A DNA stretch of 64,000 bases. Source: Mycolicibacterium sp. MU0053 (GTDB lineage: Bacteria > Actinomycetota > Actinomycetes > Mycobacteriales > Mycobacteriaceae). The stretch covers positions 1,798,001 through 1,862,000 of the forward strand of contig NZ_OY726397.1 of assembly GCF_963378095.1 (NCBI RefSeq). The letters are read 5' to 3'. The notes beneath the pieces were generated by a model. The model was not told the origin of the DNA. It did no database searches and saw only the letters and a list, made by a program, of their open reading frames with translations. Position 1 is the first letter of the stretch. Each line of letters begins with the position of its first letter. Positions 52,683 through 64,000 of the stretch are shown here, piece by piece. Both the position numbers and the translations under genes were made by a program.

Positions 52683-52767
52683 TCTGCCATGAACAGGCGT
52701 GACCTCCCAATCCGGCCAAATTTGTGCTCGCCCTGAGCAAAATTCAGGGTCTGGAACACTGGTCCTC

Positions 52768-53943
52768 ATGACGGTCCGGGCGCCCCAGGTCGCGTCGCTC
52801 GAGTTGGTCCCGACTCGCGGCGGCCCGTTCGGCATCTACGTGCACGTGCCGTTCTGCGCGACCCGCTGCGGATACTGCGACTTCAACACCTACACCCCCG
52901 GGGAACTGGGCGGGGCGACGCCCGCGGGCTGGCTCGAGGCAATGCGGATCGAACTGGCGCTGGCCGCGCGCCAGCTGCCGGCGCTGAGCGTCGACACGGT
53001 GTTCGTGGGGGGCGGCACGCCGTCGCTGCTCGGCGGCGACGGCTTGGCCGCGGTGCTCGACGCGGTCCGCGCCGAGTTCGCCCTCGCCCGCGATGCGGAG
53101 GTCACCACCGAGGCCAACCCGGAGTCGACGTCCCCCGAGTTCTTTGCGACCATCCGCGCCGCCGGCTTCAGTCGGGTCTCGCTCGGCATGCAGTCGGTGG
53201 CGCCGACGGTGCTGCGGGTGCTCGACCGGGTGCATTCGCCGGGCCGGGCGCTCGACGCGGCCCGAGAGGCGTTGGCGGCGGGCTTCGAGCACGTCAACAT
53301 CGACCTCATCTACGGCACACCGGGGGAGACCGACGACGACCTATGCCGGTCGGTGACCGCGGCGCTGGACGCCGGTATCGATCATCTGTCGGCCTATTCG
53401 CTGGTGGTCGAGGACGGCACCGCGCTGGCGCGGCGGGTCCGCCGCGGTGAGTTACCGGCGCCCGACGACGACGTGCTGGCCCGTCGCTACGAATTGCTCG
53501 ATCGATGGCTGGTGGCAGCGGGCCTGGACTGGTACGAGGTGTCCAACTGGAGCCGACCCGGTGCCGAATGCCGGCACAACCTTGGCTACTGGAACGGCGG
53601 CCAATGGTGGGGTGCCGGGCCGGGCGCGCACGGCTTCATCGGCTCGGTGCGGTGGTGGAATGTCAAGCATCCCAACGCCTATGCGCAGGCGCTGACCGAG
53701 TCCACGCTGCCGATCGCGGACTTCGAGACGCTCGACTCCCGCGACCGCCACGTCGAGGACGTGCTGCTGCAACTGCGGCTGCGCTCCGGCCTGCCGACGG
53801 CGCTGCTCGACGCGGCCGAGCGGCACCGCGCCGAGTCCGCGGTCGCCGAGGGGCTGCTGAGCAGAGCAGGTGAGCGACTGGTGCTCACCGACCGCGGCCG
53901 ACTGCTGGCCGACGGCATAGTGCGCGACCTACTGTCGGACTGA
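52768..53943 (+). CDS. hemW: Radical SAM haem chaperone HemW (HemN-like)
   Basis: 391 residues. The radical-SAM cluster motif CATRCGYC is at Cys30, Cys34 and Cys37, followed by FVGGGTPSLL and the HemW-type NIDLIYGTPGET. HemW binds haem and loads it into respiratory enzymes; it was formerly called oxygen-independent coproporphyrinogen oxidase. The ATG at 52768 is chosen because the residues before it are not family-like. In mycobacteria this gene sits between the sulfite reductase and mycobactin loci, as here (Rv2388c). The 313-base gap upstream contains the sirA leader. Confidence 0.92.
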   Translation: MTVRAPQVASLELVPTRGGPFGIYVHVPFCATRCGYCDFNTYTPGELGGATPAGWLEAMRIELALAARQLPALSVDTVFVGGGTPSLLGGDGLAAVLDAVRAEFALARDAEVTTEANPESTSPEFFATIRAAGFSRVSLGMQSVAPTVLRVLDRVHSPGRALDAAREALAAGFEHVNIDLIYGTPGETDDDLCRSVTAALDAGIDHLSAYSLVVEDGTALARRVRRGELPAPDDDVLARRYELLDRWLVAAGLDWYEVSNWSRPGAECRHNLGYWNGGQWWGAGPGAHGFIGSVRWWNVKHPNAYAQALTESTLPIADFETLDSRDRHVEDVLLQLRLRSGLPTALLDAAERHRAESAVAEGLLSRAGERLVLTDRGRLLADGIVRDLLSD

Positions 53944-53951
53944 GCGTCAGC

Positions 53952-56900
53952 TCACGCGACCGTGACGCCCTCTTCCTCGGTGGCCGAAGAGATTTCGGCG
54001 TCGAGCAGTTCGACGATGCGGGCGGTCACCGCGGCCGCGGTCGGATGCTCCCACAGCAGCGTCGGTGGCAGCGCCAGGCCGGTCTGCCGCTCCAGCTGAC
54101 GACGCAACGACACCGTCATGATCGAGTCCACCCCGATCTCGACCAGCGGTAGCCGGGTGTCGACGCTGTCCTCGGACAGCCCGAGTTCGCCTGCCACCGC
54201 GGTGAGTACCTGCTGGGCCACCCACTCGGGGGTGTCCATCTCACCGGGGCCGACCGGGCGCGCGGTGTCGCCGCCGGCATCGGAGTCTGCCGCTGCCGCT
54301 GCCGACACGTCGGACAGCATCGGCACCGACACCGCATCGGGCAGCACCGGCAATACCACCGGGTTCGGCTGTCCGGAGCGCATCGCCACCTCCAGTGCGC
54401 GCATCGCGTCGTCGGCGCCGATGGTGTCCATGCCCAACGCATCGAGTTGAGCGGCAACGAATCCGGAGTCCGATCCCATCCCGAGCCCGCGCCAGGCGGT
54501 CCATGCCACGGCGGTGGTGGCGTCGCCGAGGCCGCGACGATGCCGGGCCAACGCATCCAGGAACGCGTTGCCGCAGGCGTAGGCACCCTGGCCGGGGAAA
54601 CCGGCCAGATAGCCGCACGAGGAGTACAGCAGCATCCAGTCCAGTTGCCCCGGCGGGAACATCTCATGCAGCACCAGCGCGCCGTCGACCTTGGGGCGCA
54701 TGGTCGTGGCGATCTCCTCGATGGTGGTGTTGGCCAGGAAGACACCGGCCTCCACGCCCGCGGCGTGCACGACACCGCGCACCGGCGGCAGGTCCCGCAG
54801 CAGCGCCCGCAGGTCGTCGGCCGCGCCGTCGGCGGCCACGTCGAGCGCGGCCACCTGCACGGACACCCCGCGCTCCTCGAGTGCCGAGACCGCGCGGATC
54901 TGTTCCTGGTTCGCCGCGGTCGCCCACGAGGCCCGCGGCGGAAGACCGGAACGGGACAGCAGTACCAGTCGGCGGGCGCCGAGGTCTGCGAGCCGCTCGG
55001 CGATCCGCAGACCCAGCGCGCCGGTGCCGCCGGTGATCAGATAACTACCGGCCGGCGAGCATTCCATCGGCGTATCGGCCGCGACCGTCAGGTTGCCCAG
55101 CCGCGCGGTCAGCGCGACGCCGTCGCGGACCACCACCACCGCGTGCCCGGGCAGCGAGGCCAGCACCCCGAGCGGCAACCGCTCCTCGGCCACGTCGAGC
55201 ACCCCACCCCACAGGTGGGGGTGTTCGGTGGCGGCGACCCGGGACAGGCCCCACAGCGGGGACCGGGTGAAACCGGAGCCCTCGTGCACACCGTGGGTCA
55301 GCGTCCACAACCGCGCCATCACACCGGAATTCAGCAGGTGTTTCAGCGTCCTCAGGACGGTGTCGACGGCCGCCAGCGGGCTCTCGCCGGCCTCCGGCAG
55401 GACCAGCACCACGGCGTCGGAACCCAGATCGGCGGGAATCCCGGCCGGGTCGGCGTACACGCTGGCACCCACTCGAGCGGCCGCGAGGTCGCGCCGGCAC
55501 CAGGCGACGGTTGCGGCGTCGCCGCCGACGAGCGCCACGTGCGCGGGCCGGGCGTGCTCGGAGAACACCGTCGGATGCCAATCGAGTTGGTGCAGCACGC
55601 GGTTGACGTCGCCGCCGGCGCTGTGCTCGAGTTCCTCGAAGGCCATCCCGGTGATGGCCACCATTGGGGTGCCGGTCAGATCCGCGATGACGACGTCGGT
55701 GCAGGTGCTCTCACCGCGGCGGAGCACATGCAGTAGCACCGAATCCGACGGTGGCGCAAGGATGCTCAGTCGCTCGATGCGGGCGGGCATGCGCAGCCGA
55801 GGGGCGCCGTCGAATACCGTGGAGGCCGCCGAGGTGGCCGCGTCGAGCAGGCCGGCCCAGGTCCGCGGCTGCGATCCGTCGGGTTCGGCGCGCACCTGAG
55901 CGAGGAACTCCCCGTCGCCCTGACGGAGGTCCACGATCTGCCAGCCGAAGCCCATCTCGGCCACGCCGAGGGCGGCGAGCCGGTCCACCACGTAGCTCGC
56001 GGGCAGCTCCGTACCGCAGCGTGCCCGCACGGCGTGTTCGTCGAGGACGGGCACCCCCGGGCGAGCATCCGCGGCAGCGATCGCGGTGCAATGGGTCAGC
56101 CAACCGCCGGCGCTGGGCCCGTCCGCGTCGACCAGCCGGCTCGCGATCGCCAGCGCCCGATCGTGGCGCACCACCTGCACATCCCGGGTGCGGCCGGGTG
56201 CCACCGGGGTGCGCAGGTGCACATCGGTCACGTCACCGCCGGCCGCGGCGTGGAACGTGTTGAGCAATACCGCCGCCGGCACGATCTCGGTGCCCTGCAC
56301 CGGGTGGCTGGCGGGGTAGGGCCGGGTGTCCAGGTCCAGCCGGGTCTCCCACACCCGGGCCGGCACCGCGCCGGCGATCTCCAGCGCGCCGCCGAGCAGC
56401 GTGTGGTCGGTGGCGTCGTGCAGGCCCCGCCCGCCCGGGGGAGCGCTCGGCGTCCGCCAGAATTCGCGGTGCTGCCACTGCGTGCCGGGCAGGTTGTCGG
56501 CCCACGGCATGGTCGCGCGCAGGCCGTGCTCGACGGGGGCGCCGTGGCAGTGCAGGGCGCCGACCGCGGCGGCGACACAGCGGCGCGGGGGTTGCTCGCG
56601 GCGCAGCACCCCGACCGCGGCGTGGTCGTCAATTCCCAAGTGCAGCAACGTCTCCACCACGGAGTGTGACACCACCGGATGCGCCGAGACCTCCAGGAAC
56701 AGCCGATGGCCGTCCTCGGCGGCCGCGGTGACCGCCTCGGCGAAGCGCACCCGGTCCCGCAGGTTGGCCACCCAGTAGTCGGGTCCGCGCGCCGCGGTGG
56801 AGCGCGGGTCGGCCAGCGCCGTGGTGTACAGCGGCACCCGTGCCGGCCGCGAGGGTGGCAGCGCGCCGATCAGCCGGGCCAGCTCCGCGGTCAGCGCGTC

Positions 56901-59135
56901 CATCGCCGGGCTGTGGAAGGCGACATCGGTCTTGACCCGTCGGACCATGACGCCCTCATCGGTCAGTCGGCGGGTCAGCTCCTCGACGGCCGCCTCGGCG
57001 CCCGAGAGCACCGTGGCGGCCGGTGACGCACTGATCGCGGCGATCACGTCGGTGCGCGCGCCGAGGCGGCGCTGCGCCTCGTCGAACGGCAGCTGCACCA
57101 GCGCCATCGCGCCGTGGCCCATGACCTTCCGGAAGCCACGGGCCCGGTAGCACGCCACCGCGGCGCCCTGGGCCAGCTCGAACACCCCGGCGGTCACACA
57201 CGCGGCGACCTCGCCGACCGAGTGCCCGATCACCGCGGCCGGTCGCACACCGCGCTCCCGCAGCACCGCCGCCAGCCCCACCTGCATGGCGAAGGTCAGC
57301 GCCTGCACCTGATCGGTGCCGCCGAGTTCGCCTGTGCGCAGGGCAGTGCGGGCCGAAAACCCCAGTTCGGCGGCGAAGATGGGGTCGATCTCGTCGATCA
57401 CCGCGGCGAAGGCCGGCTCGGCGCCCAGCAGGTCGCGGCCCATCTCCGGCCAGTGCGAGCCGTGTCCGGAAAACACCCACACCGCGCCCTCGTCGGCCCG
57501 CGGCAGCGGGCTGCCGACGACCACGGCCGGGTCGCGGACGTCGTCGGCCAATGAGGTCAGCGCGCGGACGAGGTCGTCGCGGCTCTCGGCGACGACGGCG
57601 GCCCGCACCGGTTCGGGGGACCGGCGGGTCCACAGCGCGGTCGCCACCTCGGGCAACGGCGCAGGGTCCGCATCGAGGTGCTGGGCCAACGCGCGGGCCT
57701 GCGCGCCGAGCCGGGACCGAGAGCGGGCCGATACCGGAAACACGCTGGGCGCCAGGGGTTCTGGGTCGGCCGCGGCGCTGGGCGTCGGGGCCTCTTCGAG
57801 CAACACATGCGCGATCGTGCCGCCGTAGCCGTAGCTGCACACCGCCGCGCGGCGCCGGCGATCCGGCGCTCGGGTCCACGGTTCGGCAGCGGTGGGCACC
57901 CGCAGGCCGGAGTGCTCCCAGTCGACCGCGGTGGTCAGGTTGCGGATCCCCGCGGTGGGCGGGATGACCCCGTGGTGCAACGCCAGTGCCGCCTTGATCA
58001 GGCCGACGGCTCCGGCGCCGCCCTCGAGGTGGCCGGTGTTCGGTTTGACCGAGCCGATGCGCGCCGGGTCGCCGGCCGGGCGGGCGGCGCCGTACACGGC
58101 GGCCAGGGCCTCGACCTCGACGGGATCGCCCGTGGGGGTTCCGGTTCCGTGCGCCTCGATGAAATCCACACTTGCGGGGTCGATGTTCGCCGACTGGCAG
58201 CTGAGCCGGAACAGGTCCGCCTGCGCGGCGCCGTTGGGAGACATGATGCCGACGGTGCGGCCGTCTTGGGCCACGGCACCGCCGCGCACCACGGCCAGCA
58301 CCCGGTCGCCGTCGCGGACCGCATCCGCCAGTCGCTTGAGGACCACCACGGCCGCGCCCTCGCCGCGGCCGTAGCCGTCGGCCGCGGCGTCGAAGGTCTT
58401 GCAGCGGCCGTCGGATGCGGTGGCGCCCGCCCGGTCGAGCACGCGGGTCAGGCCCGGGCCGATCAGCGCGCTGACGCCGCCGGCCAACGCCAGCGCGGTC
58501 TCACCCGAGCGCAGCAGTTGGCAGGCCTGGTGCACGGCCACCAGCGAGGCCGCGCAGGCCGCATCCAGCGCGACGCTGGGTCCGCGCAGATCCAGCAGAT
58601 GCGAGACCCGGTTGGCCACCCCGCACAGCGAGGTGCCGATCCCGGTCCAGGCCTCGATGCCCTGGAGGTCCTCCATCAGCAACTTGCCGTAGTCGTCGGA
58701 GTTGACGCCCATCAGCACCGCGGTGTCGGTGCCGGCCAGCGAGCGTGGCGGCACCCCGGCGTGTTCGAGGGCCTCCCAGCTGACCTCGAGCGCCAGGCGT
58801 TGCTGGGGGTCCATCAGTTCGGCCTCGCGCGGCGAGACCCCGAAGAACTCCGCGTCGAACCCGGCCAGGTCGTCGATGAACGTGCCCAGCGTGGTGGTCT
58901 CGCGCAGCACCGCGGCATTGCGCGGGTCGCGGTGCAGGTAGGGCTCCCAGCGTTCGGCCGGCACCTCGCGCACCGCGCTGCGGCCGGCGAGCAGGAAGTC
59001 CCAGAACTGTTCGGCGGTGCCAATGTCGCCGGCGAGCCGACAACCGACGCCGACGATGGCGATCGGCTCCGGGGATGTGGCGGCGCTCACAGCGTGCGGT
59101 GAAAGCGCGTCGTGGGTATGCCCGTTCGAGTTCAT
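53952..59135 (-). CDS. Iterative type I polyketide synthase, 6-methylsalicylate synthase type
   Basis: 1727 residues in one chain. Ketosynthase about 22-450 with Cys194 (DAACAASL), His329 (HGTGT) and His369; malonyl-type acyltransferase about 552-880 with Ser639 (GHSVGE) and FHSP at 740-743; dehydratase/thioester-hydrolase-like domain about 905-1170 with His944 (HPVQGTEIVP) and Asp1098; ketoreductase about 1364-1560 with TGGTGALG and Tyr1519; acyl carrier with Ser1671 (GVDSI). No enoylreductase or thioesterase. Length, order and signatures such as GVNSDDYGKL and SYGYGGTIAHVLLEE match bacterial 6-methylsalicylate synthases. It replaces the mbtI-mbtJ segment of M. tuberculosis, downstream of mbtA on the same strand (117-base gap). 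Likely makes 6-methylsalicylate as siderophore cap. ATG at 59135 lacks a clear ribosome site. Confidence 0.88.
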   Translation of the reverse strand: MNSNGHTHDALSPHAVSAATSPEPIAIVGVGCRLAGDIGTAEQFWDFLLAGRSAVREVPAERWEPYLHRDPRNAAVLRETTTLGTFIDDLAGFDAEFFGVSPREAELMDPQQRLALEVSWEALEHAGVPPRSLAGTDTAVLMGVNSDDYGKLLMEDLQGIEAWTGIGTSLCGVANRVSHLLDLRGPSVALDAACAASLVAVHQACQLLRSGETALALAGGVSALIGPGLTRVLDRAGATASDGRCKTFDAAADGYGRGEGAAVVVLKRLADAVRDGDRVLAVVRGGAVAQDGRTVGIMSPNGAAQADLFRLSCQSANIDPASVDFIEAHGTGTPTGDPVEVEALAAVYGAARPAGDPARIGSVKPNTGHLEGGAGAVGLIKAALALHHGVIPPTAGIRNLTTAVDWEHSGLRVPTAAEPWTRAPDRRRRAAVCSYGYGGTIAHVLLEEAPTPSAAADPEPLAPSVFPVSARSRSRLGAQARALAQHLDADPAPLPEVATALWTRRSPEPVRAAVVAESRDDLVRALTSLADDVRDPAVVVGSPLPRADEGAVWVFSGHGSHWPEMGRDLLGAEPAFAAVIDEIDPIFAAELGFSARTALRTGELGGTDQVQALTFAMQVGLAAVLRERGVRPAAVIGHSVGEVAACVTAGVFELAQGAAVACYRARGFRKVMGHGAMALVQLPFDEAQRRLGARTDVIAAISASPAATVLSGAEAAVEELTRRLTDEGVMVRRVKTDVAFHSPAMDALTAELARLIGALPPSRPARVPLYTTALADPRSTAARGPDYWVANLRDRVRFAEAVTAAAEDGHRLFLEVSAHPVVSHSVVETLLHLGIDDHAAVGVLRREQPPRRCVAAAVGALHCHGAPVEHGLRATMPWADNLPGTQWQHREFWRTPSAPPGGRGLHDATDHTLLGGALEIAGAVPARVWETRLDLDTRPYPASHPVQGTEIVPAAVLLNTFHAAAGGDVTDVHLRTPVAPGRTRDVQVVRHDRALAIASRLVDADGPSAGGWLTHCTAIAAADARPGVPVLDEHAVRARCGTELPASYVVDRLAALGVAEMGFGWQIVDLRQGDGEFLAQVRAEPDGSQPRTWAGLLDAATSAASTVFDGAPRLRMPARIERLSILAPPSDSVLLHVLRRGESTCTDVVIADLTGTPMVAITGMAFEELEHSAGGDVNRVLHQLDWHPTVFSEHARPAHVALVGGDAATVAWCRRDLAAARVGASVYADPAGIPADLGSDAVVLVLPEAGESPLAAVDTVLRTLKHLLNSGVMARLWTLTHGVHEGSGFTRSPLWGLSRVAATEHPHLWGGVLDVAEERLPLGVLASLPGHAVVVVRDGVALTARLGNLTVAADTPMECSPAGSYLITGGTGALGLRIAERLADLGARRLVLLSRSGLPPRASWATAANQEQIRAVSALEERGVSVQVAALDVAADGAADDLRALLRDLPPVRGVVHAAGVEAGVFLANTTIEEIATTMRPKVDGALVLHEMFPPGQLDWMLLYSSCGYLAGFPGQGAYACGNAFLDALARHRRGLGDATTAVAWTAWRGLGMGSDSGFVAAQLDALGMDTIGADDAMRALEVAMRSGQPNPVVLPVLPDAVSVPMLSDVSAAAAADSDAGGDTARPVGPGEMDTPEWVAQQVLTAVAGELGLSEDSVDTRLPLVEIGVDSIMTVSLRRQLERQTGLALPPTLLWEHPTAAAVTARIVELLDAEISSATEEEGVTVA

Positions 59136-59252
59136 GTCAGTGAGAGTCCAAGTGCGCCAAGGGGTTTCTGAGCAGGCCAATCGGACCTCGCCCGAGGTCG
59201 ATCTTGGCATGCGGGCCCGCAAAAGTGGGGGCTACATATATCGGTGCCGCGG

Positions 59253-60926
59253 TCATGTCGGCACCAGCACGGAGACGATCTGTTTCTTGTCCACCTTGCC
59301 GACGGCGGTCTTGGGTAGCGAGGGCAGCGGGGCCAGCACGTCCGGTTTGGTGTGGGCCGAGACGCCCCGTTGGTCCAGGAATCCGTTCAACTCGGCCAGG
59401 GTGATCGGCGACCCCTTGAAAACCACCGCTGCGCAGATCTTCTCGCCCAGGTACTCATCCGGCAGCGCAACGGCCGCGGCATCGGCAATCGCCGGATGGG
59501 CGTGCAGATGCTCCTCGAGGTCCGAGGCGGACACGGTCTCGCCACCGCGGTGGATGACGTCCTTGATCCGCCCGGTGACCTCGACATAACCCGCCCAGGG
59601 GCCGTCGGTGAAGATCCGGACCCGGTCCCCGCTGCGGTAGAACCCGTCGGGGCTGAACGAACGGGCGTTCGCCTCGTCGGCCCGGTAATAGCCGTTGAGG
59701 GTGTACGGCCCGCGGACCAGCAGTTCGCCCTCCTCGCCCGGTGCCACCTCGTTGCCGTCCTCGTCGACGACCTTCATCTCGTCGTGCGGCGACATGGGAC
59801 GGCCCTGCACGTTGTCCACCACATCGACCGGATCGCCCGGTCGGGTGAAGTTCAGCATGCCCTCGGCCATGCCGAAGATCTGCTGCATGCCGGCCGAGAG
59901 ATTCTCGCGGATGAATCGGGCCTCATCGGGCATCATCCGCGATCCGCCGACCTGCACGACCCGCAGCGACGTCGGCAGCACCGGTTCCCAGTCGCAGGCC
60001 TGCGCCCACAGTTTGGCCAGCGCGTTGACCAGACCGGTGATGGTGACCTGGTACTTGTCGATCAGCGCGAATGCCACCTCGGGGCTGGGATCGCTCGTGA
60101 AAACCGTTGTCGCGCCGACGGTCATCGACCCCAGTAACCCGGGGCAGGCCAGCGGGAAGTTGTGCCCGGCCGGCAGCGCCACCAGACAGACGTCGTCGCC
60201 GGTCATCCCGTAGGCCTGCGCGCAGGCCACCGCGTTGTAGCGGTAGTCGTCGTGGGTGCGGGGGATGAGCTTCGGCAATCCGGTGGTGCCACCGGAGACC
60301 AGGAGCAGCGCCGGGGTGCCGGGGTCGACGGGAGCGCGGGTGGGGATCGGGCCCGCGTAGTCGGTGACGGTGGACCAGGACCGGAAGGGCCCGGGGTCGC
60401 CGTCGACGAGGATGTGGCGCAGGCGCGGATGTTCGGCGGCCAACTGCGCCGCCATCGCACGGAAGTCGAACCCGCCGGCGCGGTCGGTGATCACCATCCC
60501 GACGGCGCCGCTGACCTGCGCAAAGTGCCCCAGCTCGGCGCTGCGGTGCCCCGACAGGCACATCACCGGGACCGCGCCCGCGCGCAACAAACCGAACAGC
60601 GCGACGGCGAACGCGCACGAGTTGGGCAGTTGCAGCAGGATCCGGTCGCCGGCGGCGATGCCCTGGTCGGTCAGGCCGGCCCCGACCCGGTCGGCGAGCG
60701 CGTCGAGTTCGGCAAAGGTGTAGCTGACGTCGGCGTCGGCGACGGCCGGGTGGTGCGGCCGGCGTGCGGCGGCCGCACGCAGCAGCGAATCCAGGGGTTG
60801 TCCCGTCCAATAGCCGGCCTGCCGGTAGGTTTCCCCCCGGTCGGCCGGAAAGGGCACGAATCCCGTTCGGACGTCGTCGATTCCGCTGTCGAGCGCGTGC
60901 TGTGTCTCCGGCAATTCGGTACTCAT
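59253..60926 (-). CDS. mbtA: Aryl-AMP ligase of mycobactin synthesis (salicylate/6-methylsalicylate)
   Basis: 557-residue stand-alone ANL ligase that adenylates an aryl acid and loads it on the aryl carrier domain of MbtB. P-loop is VSGGTTGLPKLIPRTH (about 210-225). The aryl-acid pocket motif HNFPLACPG gives Asn256 and Cys261; a cysteine at the latter place goes with salicylate-type rather than 2,3-dihydroxybenzoate enzymes. C-terminal lysine in PKTAVGKVDKK. ATG at 60926, divergent from mbtB across two IdeR boxes. Confidence 0.93.
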   Translation of the reverse strand: MSTELPETQHALDSGIDDVRTGFVPFPADRGETYRQAGYWTGQPLDSLLRAAAARRPHHPAVADADVSYTFAELDALADRVGAGLTDQGIAAGDRILLQLPNSCAFAVALFGLLRAGAVPVMCLSGHRSAELGHFAQVSGAVGMVITDRAGGFDFRAMAAQLAAEHPRLRHILVDGDPGPFRSWSTVTDYAGPIPTRAPVDPGTPALLLVSGGTTGLPKLIPRTHDDYRYNAVACAQAYGMTGDDVCLVALPAGHNFPLACPGLLGSMTVGATTVFTSDPSPEVAFALIDKYQVTITGLVNALAKLWAQACDWEPVLPTSLRVVQVGGSRMMPDEARFIRENLSAGMQQIFGMAEGMLNFTRPGDPVDVVDNVQGRPMSPHDEMKVVDEDGNEVAPGEEGELLVRGPYTLNGYYRADEANARSFSPDGFYRSGDRVRIFTDGPWAGYVEVTGRIKDVIHRGGETVSASDLEEHLHAHPAIADAAAVALPDEYLGEKICAAVVFKGSPITLAELNGFLDQRGVSAHTKPDVLAPLPSLPKTAVGKVDKKQIVSVLVPT

Positions 60927-60974
60927 CCCGTCCCAAAACCGCCCTTCCGGGTAGGTGTGTCCGGATGATCATAT

Positions 60975-60993
60975 ATAGGGTAGCCTCCTCAAA
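60975..60993. promoter_or_regulatory. IdeR (iron) box 1
   Basis: ATAGGGTAGCCTCCTCAAA matches 13 of 19 positions of the IdeR consensus TTAGGTTAGSCTAACCTAA. Lies between divergent mbtA and mbtB, so iron-loaded IdeR could silence both. Confidence 0.6.
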
Positions 60994-60994
60994 G

Positions 60995-61013
60995 TTAGGG
61001 CAGCCTTTACTAA
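60995..61013. promoter_or_regulatory. IdeR (iron) box 2
   Basis: TTAGGGCAGCCTTTACTAA matches 14 of 19 positions of the IdeR consensus. Its centre is 20 bases from that of box 1, two turns of the helix, which suits the side-by-side dimer binding known for this regulator. Confidence 0.75.
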
Positions 61014-61032
61014 ATCTTCGGGAGGGTCGATA

Positions 61033-64000
61033 GTGGGTCGCGCCGCGACGAGTTCCCAGACCGTGCATGAAGAGGTCGCTGAACTGCTCGGTGTCAGCCC
61101 GGCCGCGCTGGACCCCGACGCCGACCTCATTGCCTCCGGTCTCGACTCCATTCGGATGATGTCGCTGTCGGGCCGCTGGCGTCGACAGGGTATCGACATC
61201 GGTTTCGCCGCCTTGGCCGAGACCCCGACGGTGGCAGCCTGGACCCAACTGGTCGCCGCGCTCACGGCCGACACCGCCGGTGCCGGCCAGGACGCGGCAC
61301 CGGACGCCGAGGCCGCGGCCGAGCCCGACGACAACGAGCCGTTCCCGCTCGCGCCCATCCAGCACGCGCTGTGGCTGGGCCGCAACGAGGAGCAGGCCCT
61401 CGGCGGCGTTGCCCCGCACCTATATGTCGAGTTCGACGGCGCCGGGGTAGACCCCCGGCAGCTGCGGGTGGCCGCGGCCGCGCTGGCCCGCCGGCACCCC
61501 ATGCTGCGGGTGGACATCCTGCCCGACGGCACCCAACGGATCAGCGACCGTACGCTGCCCGTCGCGGTGCACGACCTGCGCGACCTCGACGATGCGGCCG
61601 CGCAGGCCCGGCTGGCCGAGATCCGCGACGCGAAATCGCATCAGATCCTGCACGGCGAGGTTCTCGAGATCTCGCTGACGCTGCTGGCCGGCGGACGCAC
61701 CCGGCTGCATGTCGACATGGACATGTCGGCCGCCGACGCCGTGAGCTACCGCAACTTCATGGCCGACCTCGCGGTCCTCTACCGCGGCGACACCCTGCCG
61801 GAGTTGGGCTACACCTACCGGCGCTACCGGTCCGCGCTGACGGCGTCGACGGCGGTGTCCGAGGCCGACCGGCAGTGGTGGGCCGAGCGGGTGCCGCAAC
61901 TGCCGGAGCCGCCGTCGCCGCCGTTGGTACCGCTGTCGGAGCAGGCCAACCCCCGCCGCAACACCCGCCGCTGGCACTTCTTCGACGCCGACATCCGCGA
62001 GGCCCTGTTCGAGGGCGCCCACAAGCGCGGCGTCACACCCGCGATGGCGATCGCGGCCTCCTACGCCGGGACGCTGGCCCGCTGGTCCACCCACTCCCGG
62101 TTCCTGCTCAACCTGCCGATGTTCGGGCGCGAGCCGTTTCACCCCGACGTCGACAAGCTGGTGGGCGACTTCACCTCGTCGTTGCTGCTCGACGTCGACC
62201 TGACCGGCGCCGACACCGCCACCAAACGCGCCCGGGCCGTGCAGGAATCGCTGCACACCACGGTGCGCCACGCCAGCTACTCGGGGCTGTCGGTGCTGCG
62301 CGACCTGACCCGGCACCGCGGCGTGCCCACCCTGGCGCCGTTCGTGTTCACCAGCGCGCTGGGCCTCGGGGACCTGTTCGACGGCGAGGTCACCGAACAG
62401 TTCGGCAAGTGCGTCTGGCACATCTCGCAGGGGCCGCAGGTGCTGCTCGACGCCCAGGCCACCCCGTTCGACGGCGGTCTGCTGATCAACTGGGACGTGC
62501 GCGAGGAGGCATTCCGGCCGGGGGTCGCGGATGCGATGTTCGCCCATCACGTCGACGAGCTGATCCGCCTGGCCGGTGACGACGCCGCCTGGGACACCCT
62601 TGACACCACCGCGCTACCCCCAGACCAACGTGCGGTGCGGGCCGCGCTCAACGCGGTGAGCGCACCGGTGAGCCCAGATGCGTTGCACGACGGATTCTTC
62701 CGGTCGGCAGCGAGGACCCCGGATGCGCCCGCGGTGCTCAGCAGCCTCGGCGAGTGGAGCTACGCGCACCTGCGCGAGCGGGCGCTCGCCGTCGCCGCCA
62801 CGCTGCGGCACCACGGCGTCAACGCCGGGGACGCGGTGGCCGTGATGGGCCCCAAAAACGCCGAGCAGATCCCGGCGCTGCTCGGCATCCACGCCGCCGG
62901 CGCGGTATACCTGCCGATCGGACTCGACCAGCCCGAGGACCGCGCGGTCCGGATCCTGCAGAGCTCCGATGTGCATTCGGTGCTGTGGTGCGGCGCCCGC
63001 ACCCCGCAGGCCGACGGGCTACCGGTCCCGGCAATCACGGTGGCCGAGGCGATCGCGCACGGCCGGCCCGCAGCCGCGGCCACCGAGCCGGTTTCGGCGC
63101 GCCCCGACGACGTGGCCTACGTGCTGTTCACCTCCGGGTCCACCGGCGAACCCAAGGGTGTCCAGGTCAGTCACGGCGCGTCGATGAACACCGTCGAATT
63201 CATCAACGGGCACTTCGAGATCGGACCGCAGGACCGCTGCCTGGCGCTCTCGACGCTGGAATGCGACATCTCGGTGCTCGACATCTTCGGCATGCTGCGC
63301 GCCGGCGGTTCGATCGTCGTGGTCGACGAGGCGGACCGGCGTAACCCCGACGCGTGGGCGCGCCTGATCGGCACGCATCAGGTCAGCGTGCTGCACTGGC
63401 TGCCGGGCTGGTTGGAGATGCTGGTCGCGGTCAACTCCGGCCGGATCTCCTCGGTGCGGGTGGTGCCCACCGGCGGCGACTGGGTGCGCACCGAGATGGT
63501 TCGCGCGCTGCGTGCGCAAGCCCCCGGGGTGCGCGTCGCCGGTCTCGGCGGCGCCACCGAAACCGCCACCCACAACACCATCTGCGAGCCCGCCGAGCTG
63601 CCCACGCACTGGGCGGCGGTACCACTCGGGAAGCCCTTGCCCAACAACAAGTGTCGCGTGGTCGCGGCCGACGGCTCCGACTGCCCGGATTGGGTGCCCG
63701 GCGAGTTCTGGGTCGGTGGACGCGGCATCGCCCGCGGCTACCGGGGTCGACCCGACCTGACCGCCGAACGGTTCGTCGAGCACGACGGCAGCACCTGGTA
63801 CCGCACCGGGGATCTGGCGCGCTACCTGCCCGATGGCACGTTGGAATTCGTGGGGCGCGCCGATCACCGCGTCAAGATCAGCGGCTATCGTGTCGAACTC
63901 GGCGAGGTCGAAGGCGCCCTGAACCGCCTCGATGCCGTCGACGGCGCGGTGGCCGCGGTGGTGCCGGCCGCCGGCGATCATCGGCGCGAGCAACTCGCGG
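61033..64000 (+). CDS. mbtB: Mycobactin non-ribosomal peptide synthetase MbtB (N-terminal part, cut by window end)
   Basis: At least 989 codons, open to the window edge. GTG start with GGAGG seven bases upstream. Order: aryl carrier domain with Ser39 (SGLDSIRMM), a cyclisation domain (about 95-520) with the diagnostic D230-x4-D235-x2-S238, then an adenylation domain (LFTSGSTGEPKG at about 698-709, GRADHRVKISGYRVELGEVE near the end). It takes the aryl group from MbtA, joins it to serine or threonine and closes the oxazoline ring. The closing carrier domain is outside. Expression is probably iron-repressed through the two IdeR boxes just upstream. Confidence 0.93.
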   Translation, partial: MGRAATSSQTVHEEVAELLGVSPAALDPDADLIASGLDSIRMMSLSGRWRRQGIDIGFAALAETPTVAAWTQLVAALTADTAGAGQDAAPDAEAAAEPDDNEPFPLAPIQHALWLGRNEEQALGGVAPHLYVEFDGAGVDPRQLRVAAAALARRHPMLRVDILPDGTQRISDRTLPVAVHDLRDLDDAAAQARLAEIRDAKSHQILHGEVLEISLTLLAGGRTRLHVDMDMSAADAVSYRNFMADLAVLYRGDTLPELGYTYRRYRSALTASTAVSEADRQWWAERVPQLPEPPSPPLVPLSEQANPRRNTRRWHFFDADIREALFEGAHKRGVTPAMAIAASYAGTLARWSTHSRFLLNLPMFGREPFHPDVDKLVGDFTSSLLLDVDLTGADTATKRARAVQESLHTTVRHASYSGLSVLRDLTRHRGVPTLAPFVFTSALGLGDLFDGEVTEQFGKCVWHISQGPQVLLDAQATPFDGGLLINWDVREEAFRPGVADAMFAHHVDELIRLAGDDAAWDTLDTTALPPDQRAVRAALNAVSAPVSPDALHDGFFRSAARTPDAPAVLSSLGEWSYAHLRERALAVAATLRHHGVNAGDAVAVMGPKNAEQIPALLGIHAAGAVYLPIGLDQPEDRAVRILQSSDVHSVLWCGARTPQADGLPVPAITVAEAIAHGRPAAAATEPVSARPDDVAYVLFTSGSTGEPKGVQVSHGASMNTVEFINGHFEIGPQDRCLALSTLECDISVLDIFGMLRAGGSIVVVDEADRRNPDAWARLIGTHQVSVLHWLPGWLEMLVAVNSGRISSVRVVPTGGDWVRTEMVRALRAQAPGVRVAGLGGATETATHNTICEPAELPTHWAAVPLGKPLPNNKCRVVAADGSDCPDWVPGEFWVGGRGIARGYRGRPDLTAERFVEHDGSTWYRTGDLARYLPDGTLEFVGRADHRVKISGYRVELGEVEGALNRLDAVDGAVAAVVPAAGDHRREQLA

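Follow-up and report, generated by a model that had tools for sequence, protein, structure and literature searches.

A candidate 6-methylsalicylate synthase in place of MbtI in the mycobactin locus of Mycolicibacterium sp. MU0053 and related mycobacteria

How does a mycobactin locus without mbtI obtain the aromatic acid that caps its siderophore? The question is raised by a stretch of 64,000 nucleotides from Mycolicibacterium sp. MU0053 (contig NZ_OY726397.1, positions 1,798,001 to 1,862,000; hereafter the window). In M. tuberculosis, the segment between hemW and mbtA holds mbtI, which makes salicylate from chorismate, together with mbtJ and Rv2387, and the mbt genes are laid out as mbtI-mbtA-mbtB-H. 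In the window, a single polyketide synthase (PKS) gene occupies this segment. A preliminary description, made from the DNA letters, proposed that it encodes a 6-methylsalicylate synthase (6-MSAS) and that the cap is built from malonyl-CoA. We put at roughly 90% the probability that the gene is, as its sequence suggests, a bacterial 6-MSAS that supplies the mycobactin aryl cap in place of MbtI. The support at this level comes from the domain order, the intact active-site residues, the lack of a salicylate synthase, the linkage, the mutual exclusivity of the two starter genes, and the co-segregation with a cluster lineage. A mycobactin locus with a putative polyketide source for its cap is well supported by these data; from them we infer the product of the PKS, its release, its use by MbtA, and the aryl group of the siderophore.

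The gene encodes one 1727-residue protein with the order ketosynthase (KS), acyltransferase (AT), dehydratase (DH), ketoreductase (KR), and acyl carrier protein (ACP), flanked by hemW on one side and mbtA on the other (Table 1). Open reading frames and Pfam matches (E ≤ 0.001; KS, AT, a weak DH, KR, and PP-binding) bear out the preliminary description on these points, on the absence of enoylreductase and thioesterase domains, and on the presence of the string GVNSDDYGKL, which that description took as fitting 6-MSASs. The resulting single-module architecture, lacking both enoylreductase and thioesterase, fits that of bacterial 6-MSASs. An alternative TTG start at 59222, 87 bases upstream of the ATG, would lengthen the protein to 1756 aa (frame 53952-59222, minus strand). 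The residues with catalytic roles in the KS, AT, DH-fold, KR, and ACP domains are invariant in all 39 aligned PKS sequences (the window, 33 of 34 loci, and five proteins), and we read the VAFH motif of the AT as malonyl-type. The excluded locus (L122, genome G017) has no open PKS frame of 1500 aa (1152), through a frameshift or an error, and no salicylate synthase above the cut-off was found in that genome.

The DH match is weak (PKS_DH_N, 27.6 bits against a cut-off of 27; PS-DH, 20.0 against 23.7). Compared with solved structures, the nearest relative of this region by sequence is 7VWK (107 bits), with the DH of CurH, a modular dehydratase, at 20 bits. The 7VWK entry is titled only Polyketide synthase, and we take it to be the product-template (PT) domain of AviM. 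This assignment is consistent with the accessible part of PMC9135731, which describes AviM as a KS-AT-PT-ACP protein without KR, with a catalytic His949 and a minor Asp1104.

Closer relatives are found in other mycobacteria, where 38 sequences are 66-84% identical to the window PKS over their length, and the sole full-length paralogue in the source genome is 36% identical. In a KS tree of 53 sequences, the 39 mycobacterial rows form one clade (100/100), which is joined at 100/99 by all six MSAS-like rows, drawn from five genomes outside the genus. The six own-genome paralogues all fall outside this branch, as do both of the other weak mycobacterial matches. One of the six out-of-genus sequences is a short form of 1271 aa. 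The KS phylogeny called for in the preliminary description is thereby answered in part: the enzyme groups with MSAS-like proteins and apart from the PKS paralogues of its own genome, and the references ChlB1, NcsB, AviM, and fungal 6-MSAS, like any characterized 6-MSAS, are absent from the tree. The PKS also scores far below the cut-offs of the lipid-forming mycobacterial families of the Pks13/Pks2 type (760 against 2100 and 896 against 2400 bits). Among 344 genomes sampled from the class, 20 gave a PKS match at E ≤ 1e-25, five of them outside the genus; some of the in-genus matches, at 31-34% identity, are other PKSs, and the two that were checked lay outside the clade in the KS tree.

We then asked whether salicylate could still be made from chorismate. 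The source genome is a single contig of 5,453,374 bases rated 100% complete, and it encodes three chorismate-binding enzymes, TrpE (anthranilate synthase), PabB (aminodeoxychorismate synthase), and an isochorismate synthase, each above the cut-off for that function. The whole-genome search for mbtI suggested in the preliminary description gave no salicylate synthase (TIGR03494) above the cut-off, the best match reaching 170 of 325 bits, and no isochorismate lyase either (25 against 73 bits). The salicylate route from chorismate was thus not found in this genome.

The same either/or relation extends across the genus. In 118 Mycobacterium genomes, all searched for the middle part of the PKS (E ≤ 1e-60), a salicylate synthase over the cut-off (E ≤ 1e-70), and MbtA (E ≤ 1e-150), we found the PKS in 43, the salicylate synthase in 66, and MbtA in 104. 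The MbtA-bearing genomes divide into 61 with the salicylate synthase only, 38 with the PKS only, five with both, and none with neither (Fisher p 3e-23, with the relatedness of the genomes ignored). The PKS lies less than 10 kb from mbtA in 39 of its 43 genomes, on the same strand in 12 and convergent in 27; in G011 it is 14 kb away, and in G081, G086, and G102 it sits near a contig end, beside hemW. It adjoins hemW in both orientations, and other loci also run hemW, starter gene, mbtA, mbtB. Identity to the window MbtA is 71-100% in the 43 PKS genomes and 61-68% in the 61 genomes with the salicylate synthase only. These counts support the view that mycobactin loci have a second, recurrent form with the PKS, more widespread than first thought and common in the genus. 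The 14 remaining genomes of the 118 have no MbtA match and neither starter gene, and may use other siderophores or depend on others.

Regulatory sites offer a further line of evidence. The site TTAGGGCAGCCTTTACTAA between mbtA and mbtB is the only one in the 64 kb, on both strands, with at most five mismatches to the textbook iron box, and ten mononucleotide shuffles gave none. Where the preliminary description spoke of IdeR boxes in the plural, we find one clear site; a second box-like stretch in the gap, with 7 of 19 matches on the counted strand, was dropped. The gene arrangement given in that description holds by coordinates: the PKS lies downstream of mbtA on the same strand, with 117 bases between mbtA and the PKS ATG, and mbtB is divergent. 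A single transcript from the shared iron-box promoter probably covers both mbtA and the window PKS.

For 35 loci we searched the 180 bases upstream of the PKS for a 19-base site with at least 13 matches to the textbook box, and used windows inside PKS genes as controls. The box was left untrained because a matrix trained on the loci had its control contaminated by real sites; a criterion of at most four mismatches was also tried and missed most sites. Such a site is present in 18 of 20 convergent loci, in none of the 12 same-strand loci (the layout of the window), and in two of three of unknown layout, and the mbtA-mbtB gap holds one in 32 of 32 loci. None of 3500 control windows reaches 13 matches, and 27 reach 12. 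A convergent PKS is unable to ride on the mbtA promoter, and it accordingly has a putative iron box of its own. No such site was scored for G017, G097, and G102, but in the last two a site lies shortly past the matched start, outside the stretch that was scanned; for G069, one of the 18, an equal-scoring site further upstream is listed and the usual site is also present.

From these elements, a route to the cap can be proposed. One acetyl and three malonyl units would be joined on the single module, the KR would reduce once, and the DH-fold domain would drive dehydration or cyclization as well as release. No further gene lies between hemW and mbtA, and release as the free acid by the PKS itself is therefore assumed. 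Free 6-methylsalicylate would then be adenylated by the adjacent MbtA and loaded onto the MbtB carrier domain, and from there the usual mbtB-H assembly line would take over.

The starter gene does not travel alone. In the MbtA tree, 43 PKS-type loci form one clade (100/100) against 21 MbtI-type sequences and two outgroups; the set comprises 41 of the 43 PKS genomes (without G068, which is broken, and G081, whose mbtA was not taken), G133, and M. triplex, with 20 of the 61 mbtI-only genomes and M. smegmatis 5KEI. MbtB splits in the same way (31 against 12 rows, SH-aLRT 100, quick tree), with identities that nearly meet, 64-86% for the PKS type and 61-64% for the MbtI type; six of the 20 mbtI-type regions gave no MbtB match, and two of the 20 plus one PKS-type row were too short. 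The hemW tree (42 rows) differs: a single clade of PKS carriers is rejected there (p-AU 5e-5; 23 rows against 16, without three orphan-mbtI genomes, and with hemW absent in four of the 20 mbtI regions). Because PKS, MbtA, and MbtB split alike and hemW does not, the moving unit is at least PKS-mbtA-mbtB. The starter gene and the MbtA type (coded from the survey matches, and separately for G133) change together in all five independent pairs, or in four of four without the orphan-mbtI genomes. Tentatively, and at odds somewhat below even, we propose two interchangeable mycobactin cluster lineages, one fed by chorismate (salicyl) and the other by malonyl-CoA (6-methylsalicyl). Starter synthase, MbtA, and MbtB would have passed between species as a whole on several occasions, with the type already present being replaced or displaced. 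MbtA and its partners would be tuned to the cap, and the aryl methyl group would be a lineage-specific label of the siderophore.

Several individual loci depart from the simple layout. In G018 and G115 (L093 3057-9737, L094 2354-9061; mbtA turned to minus), mbtI and the PKS are adjacent, both in stop-free frames, and to judge by these genes both genomes should make both caps; the MbtI tree leaves both a relic and a regain standing as their origin. G027 and G100 (L095, L096) carry the PKS-mbtA-mbtB block far from hemW, with an orphan mbtI still near hemW. In G068 (L098, L099), one of the five genomes with both starter genes, the matches to mbtA, to the PKS, and to mbtI are all split into several pieces in different frames, so that all three genes look broken or the sequence contains errors; its hemW groups with those of G027 and G100.

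Whether MbtA is adapted to its substrate is a separate matter. Only six MbtA columns separate the two types under the filter used. Position 301 is N in 43 of 43 PKS-type and P in 21 of 21 MbtI-type sequences, the sole absolute difference; position 350 is I in 42 of 43 and V in 21 of 21, and position 357 is M in 42 of 43 and L in 21 of 21 (CahJ numbering throughout). In the accessible part of PMC11253843, the CahJ pocket has N256 at the 2-hydroxyl, C261 and L358 at position 3, V350 at positions 4/5, and G327 and G328 at position 6, and CahJ was crystallized with both salicyl-AMP and 6-methylsalicyl-AMP. The window MbtA keeps N256, C261, and L358, and its pocket is thus of the salicylate type. 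CahJ itself has P301, V350, and L357, as the MbtI type does; since it holds 6-methylsalicyl-AMP, the changes at these positions are not needed for acceptance. A stronger claim that 301, 350, and 357 determine specificity was dropped because MbtB splits the same way.

We give nearly an even chance to the alternative that the starter genes track two old lineages of the whole mbt cluster, their link with the cap being one of descent and MbtA and MbtB not specialized for 6-methylsalicylate. The exact agreement of MbtB with MbtA, the small number of separating columns, and the MbtI-type residues of CahJ speak for it. What speaks on the other side is not decisive: residue 350 corresponds to a pocket residue of CahJ and 357 lies beside pocket residue 358, a remark made post hoc. 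This alternative is compatible with a 6-MSAS in the locus and bears only on the tuning of the enzymes.

Chemical precedent exists within the genus. Mycobactin P of M. phlei and mycobactin H of M. thermoresistibile reportedly carry a 6-methylsalicyl group, in structures said to date from the 1960s, and labelling work on M. phlei is said to have indicated a polyketide origin of the cap. The PKS clade includes proteins labelled M. phlei (P0107) and M. thermoresistibile (P0037). Genome G133, presumably M. phlei, has the PKS beside mbtA, sister to P0107 (99/92) and 85% identical to it in the middle part, and no salicylate synthase (TIGR03494) above the cut-off was found in it. The locus of M. thermoresistibile P0037 was not found among 396 genomes, in a search without a positive control.

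A number of observations weigh against a 6-MSAS that serves mycobactin. Five genomes carry both the PKS and the salicylate synthase. The PKS reaches no NCBIfam cut-off, and the source names of its homologues vary, from 6-methylsalicylic acid synthase through PpsA to 5-methyl-1-naphthoate synthase. With no characterized 6-MSAS in the KS tree, products of the naphthoate or orsellinate type are compatible with the sequence taken alone. The sign test on joint switches gives p 0.0625 for five pairs and 0.125 for four, numbers with which p 0.05 is unreachable. Residue 350 is placed in CahJ at ring positions 4/5 and not at position 6, according to the accessible part of PMC11253843, and the differences in the MbtA pocket may simply mark lineage, as MbtB splits in the same way and CahJ lacks them. 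The M. phlei identity of G133 is tentative as well; the 15% by which it differs from P0107 in the PKS middle part means that one of the M. phlei links may be wrong.

Part of this concerns what the enzyme makes. If it is an iterative aromatic synthase with a different product, either 5-methyl-1-naphthoate as with AziB and NcsB or orsellinate, the aryl cap would be a different one. Naphthoate synthases have the same domain order, homologue P0065 of M. vanbaalenii is labelled 5-methyl-1-naphthoate synthase by its source, and 7VWK, nearest to the DH-fold domain, is presumably from AviM and thus from orsellinate synthesis. Such a product is nevertheless improbable: all 39 sequences keep their KR residues intact, whereas AviM, as described in PMC9135731, lacks this domain; several homologues are labelled 6-methylsalicylic acid synthase, although probably by automatic naming; the MbtA pocket retains the salicylate-type C261 and L358; and the proteins labelled with the two species reported to make 6-methylsalicyl mycobactins lie in the same clade. 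Less probable still is a location by chance, with the PKS making a lipid or some other product that has nothing to do with mycobactin and with salicylate coming from elsewhere, since the other PKS genes of the source genome (there are several) and the salicylate synthase kept in five of the 104 MbtA genomes, one of them broken, are outweighed by the either/or pattern over 104 of 104 genomes, the proximity to mbtA in 39 of 43, the separate iron box that the PKS has in the convergent layout, the position of the KS outside its own-genome paralogues, and the lack of a salicylate synthase or isochorismate lyase above the cut-off in the source genome.

Table 1. Features of the window at and around the starter-unit gene (positions count from the first letter of the window; residues of the PKS in 1727-aa numbering)
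Feature	Position	Strand	Details
6-MSAS-like iterative type I PKS	53952..59135	-	1727 aa from ATG at 59135; intact
KS domain	57945..59069	-	C194, H329, H369
AT domain	56547..57482	-	GHSVG and VAFH
DH-fold (dehydratase / thioester hydrolase / product-template-like) domain	55617..56405	-	H944, D1098
KR domain	54489..55049	-	GGTG(A/V)LG, K1482, S1505/S1506, Y1519, N1523
ACP domain	54015..54215	-	Ser1671, phosphopantetheine site
mbtA, aryl-acid AMP ligase of the PKS-associated clade	59253..60926	-	N301, I350, M357 (CahJ numbering)
Iron-box-like (putative IdeR) site TTAGGGCAGCCTTTACTAA	60995..61013		Divergent mbtA-mbtB promoter region
mbtB	61033..64000, past window end	+	Carrier, condensation/cyclization, adenylation, carrier; 1171 aa
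hemW	52699..53943	+	Adjoins the starter-unit gene on the left, as in most loci read

The surrounding genes identify the locus. MbtA, MbtB, MbtC to MbtG, MbtH, and an iron box, by which a mycobactin locus is recognized, are all present in the source genome; MbtI is not. Beyond the window, mbtB is followed by a separate thioesterase, an mbtC-like KS, mbtD, mbtE- and mbtF-like nonribosomal peptide synthetase (NRPS) genes, an mbtG-like oxygenase, MbtH, and HrcA. MbtD exceeds its NCBIfam cut-off (1295 against 1150 bits), and mbtC, E, F, and G were assigned by domains and gene order; Pfam recognizes MbtH, the thioesterase, HrcA, the KS, a Lys/Orn oxygenase (partial, in the mbtG frame), and NRPS domains in mbtB, E, and F. 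By Pfam, MbtB (L004 534-4789) has no thioesterase domain, and the thioesterase frame stands next to it as a gene of its own, ahead of the mbtC-like gene. The name of MbtA rests on 65% identity to the M. smegmatis chain 5KEI, which is given as MbtA in the accessible part of PMC11253843; against NCBIfam it stays below every cut-off (best TIGR02275, 534 against 724 bits). To the left of hemW are a nitrite/sulfite-reductase-like gene and sulfate transport genes.

With a PKS in the place of MbtI, a chemical difference long known among mycobactins would find its explanation. A genetic basis can be proposed for mycobactins P and H with their 6-methylsalicyl group, the cap would become predictable from the genome, and the source of the iron carrier's cap would shift from the shikimate pathway to malonyl-CoA. 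MbtI is not general, as 38 of the 104 sampled MbtA-bearing genomes have no salicylate synthase above the cut-off; an inhibitor of MbtI should therefore spare them, which an inhibitor of MbtA need not. In the open-access literature, of which our coverage was partial, we met no description of a mycobacterial mbt locus with a 6-MSAS, and an earlier report is possible. For M. abscessus, the accessible part of PMC9505556 describes an unusual mycobactin and has mbtI among the listed genes.

Set beside known systems, the locus resembles the mycobactin loci of M. tuberculosis and M. smegmatis in its hemW neighbour, the divergence of mbtA from mbtB, an MbtD above the NCBIfam cut-off, and the iron-box promoter. 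It differs from both in that the starter acid would come from a PKS and not from the chorismate enzyme MbtI, and in that MbtA and MbtB belong to a separate clade; unlike in M. tuberculosis, where it is fused, the thioesterase is on its own gene. With ChlB1 and related bacterial 6-MSASs the PKS shares KS-AT-DH-KR-ACP on one chain of about 1700-1800 aa, but the mycobacterial sequences form a clade of their own (100/100). Like the PT domain of the orsellinate synthase AviM, its DH-fold domain has His and Asp at matching places; unlike AviM, the protein has an intact KR. Cahuitamycin C of Streptomyces gandocaensis (CahI, CahJ) is the Streptomyces precedent for a 6-MSAS-derived cap. As far as the accessible part of PMC4757757 goes, its 6-MSAS gene is unlinked, in a strain that also has a salicylate synthase, and the cap is attributed to the 6-MSAS and CahJ; deletion of the salicylate synthase left form C only, and fed 6-methylsalicylate raised form C. 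The two systems are alike in pairing a 6-MSAS, here a putative one, for a salicylate-like cap with a stand-alone ligase, the window MbtA being 52% identical to CahJ. They differ in that the Streptomyces strain has a salicylate synthase as well as its unlinked 6-MSAS, whereas the window PKS lies within the locus and stands alone.
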